Of a stretch of DNA of 58,934 bases, positions 13,068 to 58,934 are shown piece by piece. The stretch comes from Bacteroidota bacterium (GTDB lineage Bacteria; Bacteroidota; Bacteroidia; Cytophagales; Cyclobacteriaceae): the NCBI GenBank assembly GCA_947470895.1, contig CANIVF010000022.1, forward strand, positions 1 to 58,934, written 5' to 3'. Made by a program: the position numbers and the translations under genes. How positions within the stretch are numbered: the stretch's first letter is position 1; every line of letters starts with the position of its first letter. The notes under the pieces are model-generated. The model had not been told where the DNA came from. It was given only the letters and a program-made list of their open reading frames with translations, and searched no databases.

Positions 13068-13318
13068 TGGATATTCCGGTGTAATTGACCACATGATTCC
13101 GGAGCAAAGCGACCACTAAAAGTCAAGTCATTATCTGAGTTAAAAAATGTTGGCCATCGAAAGTGATTTAGAAAAGGCGCAGAGTTAGCCTATTCAATCA
13201 ACTGTTCAGGTCAACCGATCTCAATACATTTTTAACTCAAATCAGGTGGTCACTTTGCTCCGGAATCAAGTGGTCACATTCAAACGGAAATCAGTGGTCA
13301 CATTATCCGGAATCTCCA
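13068..13318. mobile_element. 251-bp mini-element with IS21-like iterated terminal repeats (MITE-like)
   Basis: The ends are inverted: TGGATATTCCGG at 13068 and CCGGAATCTCCA ending at 13318 (TG...CA termini). The left end has two tandem units of about 24 bp of the form GATTCCGG-N8-GACCAC. The right end has three in inverted orientation. Inside them both ends carry TGAGTTAAAAA(A)TGT. Nothing between them is long enough to be a transposase. The left end closely matches the element end at 58789, so both belong to one family. Iterated transposase-binding repeats at both tips are typical of IS21. No clear target duplication is visible. Confidence 0.75.
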
Positions 13319-38447: not shown

Positions 38448-39290
38448 TTAAAGATCTTTTTGATGATATAAGGTAAGGCCTGCAATAGGACCCTCTAAAA
38501 TGTTTTTTACAGTAATGCCTTTGTCATTGGCTACCTGGCGTAAAATATCGCTGAAGTAAAACCCGATGGAGCCTACAAAATGGACTTTCGTGTTTTTATA
38601 GTCCTCATACTTCATCACGTTGTTCTGATAGAAGTCTGCGAAGCTGTTGTAAATGAGCTTATAACAATACGGTTCATCAATGTGCTGAAATATAAATTTG
38701 CAAAAGCTGGCCAGAAATGCTCCGGGTTTTTCACCCTGATATACTTTTTCAAGCACTTCTTCGCGGTTGAATGGAAACCGCTGATAAAACTGATCCGCCA
38801 GTTTCTCTGGCATCTCCTTGCGGAAATAATCGAAGATAAATTTCTTGCCGATAAACGTACCCGATCCTTCATCGGCCAAAATCCAACCAAGGTTTGCTAC
38901 GTTATCGATGATCTCCACACCATCATATAGGCAGGAATTAGATCCTGTACCTAAAATACAAGCGATCCCTTTTTCTTGTCCACACAAGGCGCGCCCTGCG
39001 GCCAGCAAATCCCAACCTATTTCGATATGCGCCTTAGGCCAATACTTTGCGAAAGCATCTTGAATGGTGATTACATTTTTTTCTGAGGAAACACCGGTAC
39101 CATAGAAGAAAATTTTATCAACTGGCTCTTCAATTTTTGGAACCAGGTGCTCTTCAACAATATTAGTTAAATGGTCTAAGGGTTGATAATAAGGATTGAA
39201 ACCCGGGCTGTGTGCCTGACCAATAGTGCCGTCTTTTTTTAAAAACCTCCAATCAATTTTGGAACCTCCGCTGTCTGCGATAATAATCAT
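38448..39290 (-). CDS. BadF/BadG-type ATPase, probable amino-sugar (GlcNAc/MurNAc) kinase
   Basis: 280 residues of actin-like ATPase fold. The phosphate-1 loop is IADSGGSKIDWRF (about 3-15), phosphate-2/adenosine motifs are ILGTGSNSCLYDG and LADEGSGTFIGK, and the late HFVGSIGFYF is the adenosine loop. Relatives phosphorylate GlcNAc or both GlcNAc and MurNAc. With murQ next to it, MurNAc to MurNAc-6-P is the natural inference. Cytoplasmic. Confidence 0.85.
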   Translation of the reverse strand: MIIIADSGGSKIDWRFLKKDGTIGQAHSPGFNPYYQPLDHLTNIVEEHLVPKIEEPVDKIFFYGTGVSSEKNVITIQDAFAKYWPKAHIEIGWDLLAAGRALCGQEKGIACILGTGSNSCLYDGVEIIDNVANLGWILADEGSGTFIGKKFIFDYFRKEMPEKLADQFYQRFPFNREEVLEKVYQGEKPGAFLASFCKFIFQHIDEPYCYKLIYNSFADFYQNNVMKYEDYKNTKVHFVGSIGFYFSDILRQVANDKGITVKNILEGPIAGLTLYHQKDL

Positions 39291-57001: not shown

Positions 57002-58388
57002 GGCTACCACGCTGCTTTCTGTTTTATTTTTTTTAGTTGCCTGCGAAGAGGATGTGAACACTTTGGGCTTCAAAAGCGGGCAAAACAAGTTTAAAGTTTA
57101 CTATGCTGAGATCCCACTTGAGCCAAGTGTTCTTTTGATGGATTCTCTGCGTACAACAAACCTTAGCGGAGAGACAACCAGACTATTAGCAGGTAGTTAT
57201 GCAGATCCTGTTTTTGGATTGATAAATGCGCAGGCCATGATGCAGTTTAAATCGGCCAACATAACCACTCCCATTACTTCTACATCTGAATTTGATTCTA
57301 TTGTATTTCAAATTCGTTTTGATTTTTATCAATATGGGAGTACTAGCCAAACGTCACAATCCTTTGCTATTCACGAAATCATGGAAGAATTAGACTATAA
57401 AAAGGATTACTTTTTCAATTCAGATGTTCAGGTTGACCCGAACCCACTCGGTGATACTTCGGTTTATGTAAACTATGAATTTTTCAAAAAAGAATTTGAA
57501 GATACGGATACTGACTCCGTTATAACACTAAAGGTGAAACTTAGAGACAGTTTTGGCCAACGGCTTTTTGATGCCGCTGACATAGAGGATGTGAACTATA
57601 CCGATTTTGATTTGTTCAAAACTAATTTTAAAGGGTTAGCCATCATTCCCCAACAATCTGATAAAATTGTTGGCTTTAACCCAAGCGACTTAAATAGCGC
57701 TCTCTTTCTTTATTACCATGAAGGCAATGTCAAAAAAACGATTTCATTCAATTTATCCTTCACACAGGGATATTATCAAAGCATCGCGTTTACGAAAATT
57801 TTAAATGATCGGTCATCGACAGAATTATCTGGCCTTACTCAATTCAATAGTGATTTTGATCCCGGACCTAAACGATACATTCAGGGTGGTACATCGATAA
57901 TTACAAAGCTTGATCTTTCGAAATACTATGAATACATCGATACTATACCTAACCTGATGATCAATTCCGCTGAATTAGAAATCTCAGCTGTAGAAACGGC
58001 ATCCAATTTCAAAGTTCCTAAATCACTAACGGTATCCATGCTTCGCTCAAATAACCGTTTCAAAACAATTAAAAATGATCAAGATTCATTAGACTTCATT
58101 AATTTCAATGGAAAAGTTGCTATCGGAGATCAATTGAAATTTTTTATTGCCAAGGATGAAGGAGCTACTTTTTCAATGGACTATTCCTCTACAACTAATA
58201 TTTATAACGGATTTCCAACTCTGTTTTTTCAGAAACTTTATAATTTAAAGTCTGAACAACGTTTTCCTTTTTGGGCATTACGCCCAGGAGATCCACAACC
58301 TGGTAAATCAGTTGACCGTTTAGTGTTTCCAAAAGATAAACTCAAACTTAAAATTTATTATACCAGATCAACGTTAGATAACCAATAA
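56994..58388 (+). CDS. DUF4270 family lipoprotein
   Basis: 464 residues from a TTG at 56994 that overlaps the preceding stop by eight bases. This start gives a proper lipoprotein signal, AKATTLLSVLFFLVAC|EED (Cys at about 18). A longer frame to 56931 lacks a better signal, so the start is a judgement. The mature part matches DUF4270: LLMDSLRTTNLSGETTRLLAGSYADPVFG and GKLKI-type C-terminal strands with LDLSKYYEYI. It is an envelope protein of unknown function, largely limited to Bacteroidota, next to glmS. Confidence 0.85.
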   Translation: MAKATTLLSVLFFLVACEEDVNTLGFKSGQNKFKVYYAEIPLEPSVLLMDSLRTTNLSGETTRLLAGSYADPVFGLINAQAMMQFKSANITTPITSTSEFDSIVFQIRFDFYQYGSTSQTSQSFAIHEIMEELDYKKDYFFNSDVQVDPNPLGDTSVYVNYEFFKKEFEDTDTDSVITLKVKLRDSFGQRLFDAADIEDVNYTDFDLFKTNFKGLAIIPQQSDKIVGFNPSDLNSALFLYYHEGNVKKTISFNLSFTQGYYQSIAFTKILNDRSSTELSGLTQFNSDFDPGPKRYIQGGTSIITKLDLSKYYEYIDTIPNLMINSAELEISAVETASNFKVPKSLTVSMLRSNNRFKTIKNDQDSLDFINFNGKVAIGDQLKFFIAKDEGATFSMDYSSTTNIYNGFPTLFFQKLYNLKSEQRFPFWALRPGDPQPGKSVDRLVFPKDKLKLKIYYTRSTLDNQ

Positions 58389-58391
58389 CCT

Positions 58392-58788
58392 ATGTGTGGA
58401 ATAGTTGCGTACGTGGGCCCTCGTCAAGCTCATGAAGTAATCATCAAAGGTCTCAAACGATTAGAGTATCGTGGTTATGATAGCACAGGCATTGCGTTAT
58501 TAAACGGTGGCCTCAATATTTATAAAAAGAAAGGAAAAGTCTCCGAGTTGGAATCCTTTTTAAAAGGTCAGACATTAGATAGTCACATCGGTATGGGGCA
58601 CACACGTTGGGCCACCCATGGCGAACCTAATGATGAAAATGCTCACCCCCATTATTCTGCCACAAAAAAACTAGCCATTATTCATAATGGTATTATCGAA
58701 AATTATTCATCCTTAAAACAGGATCTTTTAAGGAAGGGGCATACTTTTCTGAGTGAAACAGACACTGAAGTTTTTATTCATTTCATAG
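58392..58788 (+). pseudogene. glmS: glmS, 5' part only, interrupted by an IS21-like element
   Basis: About 132 codons of the glutamine amidotransferase (Ntn) domain: MCGIVAYVG with catalytic Cys2, KRLEYRGYDSTGIAL, MGHTRWATHGEPNDENAHPH and SETDTEVFIHFI. The full enzyme is about 610 residues. After FIHFI the reading frame enters TGGATATTCC, the end of the element, and stops at 58817. The isomerase half is missing from the window. GlmS makes glucosamine-6-P for wall and LPS and is usually essential without exogenous amino sugars. The gene follows the DUF4270 gene directly, as the native locus would. Confidence 0.9.
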
Positions 58789-58934
58789 TGGATATTCCGG
58801 TTAACGTGACCACTTGATTCCGGAGCCAAGTGACCACCAAAAGTTAAGTCGTTAGTTGAGTTAAAAAATGTATTGATTTTTCGGTTGATCACAGCCTGGT
58901 TTTAGTTTTCGTATTCGGTTAGTTCTTCTGCTAA
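58789..58934 (-). mobile_element. IS21-like insertion sequence, one end, running off the window
   Basis: The end starts TGGATATTCCGG at 58789 and has two ~24-bp units with GATTCCGG...GTGACCAC, then TTGAGTTAAAAAATGTATTGA, matching the left end of the 251-bp mini-element at 13068. On the minus strand a reading frame ends at 58902-58904, so the transposase-side genes point towards this end. The rest lies beyond the window. Confidence 0.75.
58902..58934 (-). CDS. C-terminal tip of an IS-encoded protein (probably IstB-like)
   Basis: Only the last ten residues (LAEELTEYEN, then TAA) are present. Position just inside an IS21-like end, where the helper ATPase istB usually stops, suggests its identity. 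Sequence alone is too short to prove it. Confidence 0.4.
   Translation of the reverse strand, partial: LAEELTEYEN

Follow-up and report, generated by a model that had tools for sequence, protein, structure and literature searches.

In the analyzed window (the entire contig C22, 58,934 bases, of the genome here called G000), the gene glmS is broken after codon 132 and continues directly into the left end of an IS21-family element, which is repeated elsewhere in the same draft genome; no other glmS was observed in the assembled sequence, genes of the amino-sugar salvage type are present, and a second member of the genus was found to be glmS-less. The reading towards which we lean is that an IS21-family element destroyed glmS in a real and recent loss, and that the cell tolerates this, as Akkermansia does, by importing and salvaging GlcNAc. 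The features of the window are as follows.

57006..58388, plus strand: DUF4270 gene, immediately 5' of glmS (PF14092, E 1e-22)
58392..58788, plus strand: glmS remnant, codons 1–132 (start of the glutaminase domain) and the first base of codon 133
58392..58817, plus strand: open frame of 141 residues, 132 from GlmS and 9 from the junction and IS
58789..58934, minus strand: IS21-family left end, 146 bp, reaching the contig end, identical on five contig ends
37639..38442, minus strand: murQ, N-acetylmuramic acid 6-phosphate etherase (TIGR00274, 314 bits, cut-off 302)
38448..39290, minus strand: MurNAc/GlcNAc kinase-like protein, adjoining murQ (matches to PDB 8ow9 and 8oqk)
13068..13318, plus strand: mini-element of 251 bp, MITE-like, with both ends of the IS kind (sequence matches to the IS ends)

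The frame that opens with an ATG at 58392 exhibits no internal stop in its 132 glmS codons and aligns with positions 1–132 of TIGR01135 (E 4.5e-60), with Pfam GATase_6 also matched. In the glmS profile search of the whole genome the same frame covers positions 1–134 at 203 bits, and it lies below the 418.05 bits, spanning both the glutaminase and isomerase parts, that were taken to mark a full-length GlmS; by its sequence it is a GlmS remnant and no GlmS. The break falls at 58788/58789, from where the frame reads TGGATATTCC up to a stop at 58817; in all 18 compared relatives HFI is followed by EDI with no break. The preliminary description had placed an interruption by an IS21-like element after codon ~132, with only the glutaminase start left at the locus, and both statements were borne out, the former by the junction, the repeated end and a related element with IS21 genes in the genus genome G015, and the latter by codons 1–132 being readable here with the 3' half not found in the assembly. 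The pN/pS of the remnant against 19 relatives (median 0.085) is close to that among the relatives (0.096, 171 pairs), and the remnant still looks constrained, which, with synonymous sites near saturation, means that no decay is visible.

The 146-base left end recurs with 100% identity on four further contigs (C89, C46, C115 and C127), again at a contig end, with each of the five copies beside a different flank, and the right end, TGGAGATTCC, was detected on four contig ends (C126, C41, C67 and C6); each of these nine contigs carries 145–148 element bases and then ends. As assemblers usually stop at repeats, the terminus of C22 is presumably not a biological end. The junction does lie close to a contig end and within a repeat, as would be expected of an assembly chimera that wrongly joined glmS to an IS end, but such a chimera is very improbable, since the five left-end contigs share 146–148 identical IS bases, all beginning at one same base, two other copies display matching target duplications (CAATTAG, 7 bp, for C89/C41; CCGTG, 5 bp, for C115/C126), and on contig C67 what is apparently the opposite flank of the locus runs into the IS right end. 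When random flanks were used in 20 pairings, at least one match of at least 5 bp was seen in 3.5% of trials and of at least 7 bp in 0.2%. The ends for which no partner was found by duplication are C22, C46 and C127 on the left and C67 and C6 on the right. The five left ends, four right ends and two duplications together represent an IS21-type repeat, with conserved ends and target duplication. A PMT_2-type glycosyltransferase gene (start of C115 and end of C126) is apparently split by the same IS, with the 5-bp CCGTG duplication.

The IS end was searched in 62 genomes of the genus (apparently Cyclobacteriaceae), and matches at 1e-20 were obtained in three of them (G000, G015 and G036). The element of G015 (2.62 kb) contains both ends (83% and 86% identity to the G000 ends) and encodes an IS21-family transposase (NF033546, 244 bits, cut-off 160) and IstB (NF038214, 252 bits, cut-off 200), and on the strength of this element the IS21 assignment is taken to be right; compared with it by eye, positions 58902–58934 of the window resemble, on the minus strand, the final istB codons. 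The likeness to the IS21 family thus consists in the istA/istB pair of the G015 relative and in the conserved repeated ends and the 5- and 7-bp duplications of G000, whereas the G000 element departs from it in being known from its ends alone and in showing no duplication between C22 and any of the four right ends. The IS body was not found when the G000 assembly was searched with the G015 element, which matched a 153-bp piece on C73, stretches of 65–66% identity on C167 and C160, and otherwise the ends and the mini-elements. The start of C73 (C73:1-322) harbors a 52-codon IstA piece, 92% identical to the G015 copy and fused to other sequence within a single open frame, and appears to be a rearranged or truncated IS copy. 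Copies related to the 251-bp mini-element of the window were also observed near C58:11034 and C11:28478; the mini-element is related to the IS kind of the glmS event and is no part of that event.

Contigs C22 and C67 are probably two sides of a single ancestral locus, as judged from the gene order (a cut gene weakly similar to a 3HCDH-like one, the Rid-family gene and gltX). C67 contains the IS right end, about 80 residues of a cut gene, a Rid-family gene, glnS and gltX, in that order. The cut gene, truncated at its N-terminus by the IS right end, with the IS oriented as on C22, gave no family hit in the profile search and aligns weakly (about 75 residues, score 65–66) with a 3HCDH-like gene, which adjoins glmS in G032 and lies near glmS in G013. 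This alignment worked for L011, L025 and L112, of which L025 and L112 are from one genome, while L008 scored 21 against a wrong neighbor and L015 gave none, the neighbors of both having been seen by eye. Among the 18 relatives, inspection by eye located a 3HCDH-like gene 3' of glmS in four (L008, L011, L015 and L025); the other 14 have no such gene within the viewed stretch, and the order 3' of glmS varies in the genus. The segment missing between C22 and C67 is 1.93 kb long when measured on G032; on G013, where an extra gene is present, it is 2.5 kb. It comprises glmS codons 133–611 (479 codons, the isomerase part) and a portion of the next gene. As no target duplication joins C22 and C67, a single simple insertion does not account for the arrangement, and we infer that the middle piece was either removed in an IS-associated deletion or, after two insertions, lies on a short contig missing from the assembly; in both cases continuous glmS is gone from the locus. 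The idea that glmS simply runs off C22 onto another contig was rejected for the assembled sequence, as no 3' half was found in it and C67, the apparent continuation of the locus, starts past the missing part.

The draft of G000 spans 167 contigs totaling 4,922,601 bases, and its completeness and contamination are given as 100 and 0.27, respectively. The TIGR01135 profile search of these 4.92 Mb of assembled sequence revealed no second glmS and no 3' half; six matches were obtained, none over the cut-off, which are the glmS fragment, two class-II amidotransferase-like frames and three SIS-type regions, one of them the window murQ. The same profile recovered a glmS over the cut-off in all 14 control genomes and also detects 3' fragments down to 182 and 143 profile positions (G029 and G043, respectively). 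The second glmS that had been offered as one explanation is thus not in the assembled genome, a copy on a short contig missing from it being conceivable, and a contig continuing glmS directly from FIHFI, which had been named as one observation that would speak against the interruption, was looked for with the result that the assembled G000 contains no 3' half.

It is unlikely, though to be taken seriously, that the cells hold an intact glmS that is missing from the assembly, either as a second copy on a short contig or as an uninterrupted allele in a subpopulation. The G000 contigs are apparently numbered from long to short, their lengths falling from 4,324 bases for C161 to 3,353 for C167, the shortest contig seen; contigs below about 3.3 kb seem to be absent from the sequence, and an intact glmS could fit in one of these. 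The body of the element (2.62 kb for the G015 copy) is likewise not in the assembly despite five left ends that imply several copies, and some repeat-bounded sequence is therefore certainly missing. However, C22 crosses glmS into the IS and ends only where the IS turns repetitive, like the four other left-end contigs, and by assembler logic the contig should have broken sooner if the 5' end had an identical second copy or if an uninterrupted allele were about as common, so that the continuity of C22 argues against a similarly abundant intact allele, not against a minor one. The absence of glmS is also possible in the genus, as G016 shows. Moreover, two protein searches gave, among the best 120 matches listed in each, no protein with its first 132 residues identical to the window GlmS, the best match listed having 94.7% identity, which is weak evidence since the database is clustered at 90%.

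Of the 60 genus genomes that were searched for glmS, NagA and NagB, 53 pass the glmS cut-off, and seven (G000, G010, G016, G029, G043, G047 and G060) fall below it. G029, G043 and G047 contain glmS fragments in assemblies of 510 to 810 contigs, and G010 and G060 reach a completeness of 81% and 78%, respectively; the absences in these five may be ordinary gaps. G004, G044, G048 and G053 are likewise partial, yet over the cut-off. In the 44 good genomes (completeness of 90% or more, contamination of 5% or less), a glmS match was obtained in 42, the two without any being G000 and G016. The G016 assembly is 95% complete in 10 contigs, and on its unbroken 620,567-bp contig G016:C2 the DUF4270, Rid-family, gltX and TIGR00266 genes stand in a row with glmS absent between them; about 85 bases separate the DUF4270 gene (PF14092, E 7.6e-19), which marks the locus, from the Rid-family start, and the 3HCDH-like gene is absent there too. 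This congener has apparently lost glmS outright. In a tree of the glycogen-synthase-like neighbor from 14 of 15 selected genomes, G000 pairs with G022 (91/94, not starred), and the placement of G016 is not settled by it, so that the independence of the G000 and G016 losses rests mainly on their differing form.

The check for nagA, nagB and a GlcNAc transporter that the preliminary description had recommended returned NagA-, NagB- and NagP-like homologues in G000, those on C17 scoring under the curated cut-offs. The C17 cluster includes a NagA-like gene (214 bits, cut-off 225.65), a NagP-like transporter (376 bits, cut-off 625), a NagX-like protein (299 bits, cut-off 480) and a NagB-family protein (134 bits, cut-off 236.9). 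The NagA-like protein has no Pfam hit at 1e-3 and aligns over most of its length with solved GlcNAc-6-phosphate deacetylases (best E 7.5e-42), and the NagB-family protein aligns with solved deaminases (best E 6.4e-30). G016 contains genes of the NagA, NagP, NagX and NagB types within about 11 kb, with NagA at 251 bits, over the cut-off. G020 carries the arrangement of G000 too, as recognized by model for NagA and by eye for the other genes, and at the same time has an intact glmS; the cluster may therefore predate glmS loss. A NagA scan of named genomes gave 14 loci from 43 pattern matches, and Algoriphagus sp. CAU 1675 carries a 61% NagA; a scan with the DUF4270 protein yielded 26 pattern matches, none of them leading to a relative.

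In the window itself, the predicted murQ product would make GlcNAc-6-P, and the adjoining kinase-like protein, for which no NCBIfam or Pfam family was obtained at E 1e-3, has as its two best PDB matches 1zxo and 1zbs, entries with no named function, and also matches 8ow9, 'Putative novel MurNAc kinase' (E 1.5e-60), and 8oqk, 'N-acetylglucosamine kinase' (E 1.2e-54). Neither murQ nor a kinase of this type was found in the four compared stretches of G016, which are a small part of that genome. An AnmK gene is located on C80 of G000, and murA passes its cut-off in all five genomes examined for it, including G000 and G016; as judged by murA alone, the wall pathway from UDP-GlcNAc is retained in G000. 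The dependence on imported or recycled amino sugars that had been suggested for this lineage thus gains indirect backing from the Nag-like cluster, murQ, the kinase-like gene, AnmK and murA, and from the similar cluster of the glmS-less G016, the auxotrophy itself, like the functions of the salvage genes, being a prediction.

NagB-family matches number three in G000 (C80, over the cut-off with 250 bits; C17; and C61, with a stop inside) and three in G016, and they would permit a different outcome of glmS loss, in which a NagB-family enzyme, working in reverse, forms glucosamine-6-phosphate de novo from fructose-6-phosphate and ammonium. We consider this improbable, since NagB is over the cut-off in 44 of the 60 genomes, 41 of these 44 also passing the glmS cut-off, and does not mark the losers, and since the NagB of Akkermansia is reported not to work in this direction under physiological conditions (PMC5902328). 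Two of the matches, C61:9721-10452 in G000 and G016:C1:523638-524369, cross a stop codon and are either pseudogenes or matches reaching beyond the frame end. The match on C80 of G000 (L126:4076-6004) is a 643-residue NagB-like protein adjoining AnmK, whose C-terminal part shows a very weak BshB-type deacetylase match (E 9e-5, with no stretch passing alone); if this part deacetylates amino sugars, it could replace NagA.

NagA exceeds 200 bits in 7 of the 60 genomes (G000, G005, G016, G020, G022, G033 and G047), the next-best genome scoring below 36 bits. By this line, which was set after the scores were seen for a pattern spotted post hoc, NagA is present in 2 of 2 good genomes without glmS versus 3 of 42 with it (p 0.011), and in 3 of 7 versus 4 of 53 among all 60 (p 0.029). 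By the curated cut-off of 225.65, at which G000 drops out and significance is lost, the values are 1 of 2 versus 2 of 42 in the good genomes (p 0.13) and 2 of 7 versus 2 of 53 in all 60 (p 0.063). The association rests on two good glmS-less genomes, and the NagA carriers G000 and G022 are close kin. NagB was also tried as a predictor of glmS loss and was rejected on the counts given above.

A natural absence of GlmS with an amino-sugar requirement has precedents. In PMC5902328, glmS is called essential in peptidoglycan-forming bacteria, E. coli glmS mutants are stated to require supplied GlcNAc, and Akkermansia muciniphila is described as naturally lacking GlmS and needing GlcNAc or GalNAc, as shown by growth. 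A. muciniphila and G000 have in common the absence of GlmS, the presence of NagB and the use of an outside amino sugar (predicted for G000), whereas in A. muciniphila the gene is wholly absent and in G000 an IS-broken remnant is left while genus relatives keep glmS. Tannerella forsythia is reported to be without glmS, glmU, murA and murB and to depend on external MurNAc (PMC5790795); it shares with G000 a murQ beside a sugar kinase gene and an external amino-sugar dependence (again predicted for G000), and differs in lacking the front of the pathway, G000 keeping murA. Among the matches listed from the open-licence literature, no report of glmS loss in Cyclobacteriaceae was found. The loss of glmS with amino-sugar dependence is already known, and the new part is the occurrence of an IS-broken remnant and a clean loss in one genus, along with a gene cluster that may accompany the loss.

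Under the favored reading, that of a real loss of glmS by the IS21-family element, the IS left end would stand after codon 132 and the right end, in the same orientation, about 1.9 kb onward in the ancestral order, inside a gene resembling the 3-hydroxyacyl-CoA-dehydrogenase-like neighbor of glmS, with the 479 missing codons either deleted, leaving one IS copy, or stranded between two IS copies. GlcNAc would then be imported by the NagP-like transporter, phosphorylated by the window kinase and deacetylated by the NagA-like enzyme to glucosamine-6-phosphate, which would enter the retained wall pathway, and MurQ and AnmK would recycle the cell's own wall. As recycling alone gives no net supply for growth, the lineage should need an external amino sugar.

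For the genus as a whole, we put forward tentatively, and with somewhat less than even confidence, that a nagA import and deacetylation cluster makes glmS dispensable and that glmS has been lost repeatedly by different routes, by clean deletion in G016 and by an IS21-family element here. If so, the genus would represent a natural series from glmS-only species, through those with both glmS and nagA (such as G020), to nagA-only species living on amino sugars from the walls of other microbes or from chitin. The finding also illustrates how a real gene loss can be concealed where a contig of a fragmented genome ends. Intact, broken and cleanly lost glmS in one genus, together with a candidate gene set, would offer a test of when an essential gene becomes dispensable, and such a genus would lead one to expect these species to have a concealed need for amino sugars that their neighbors release.
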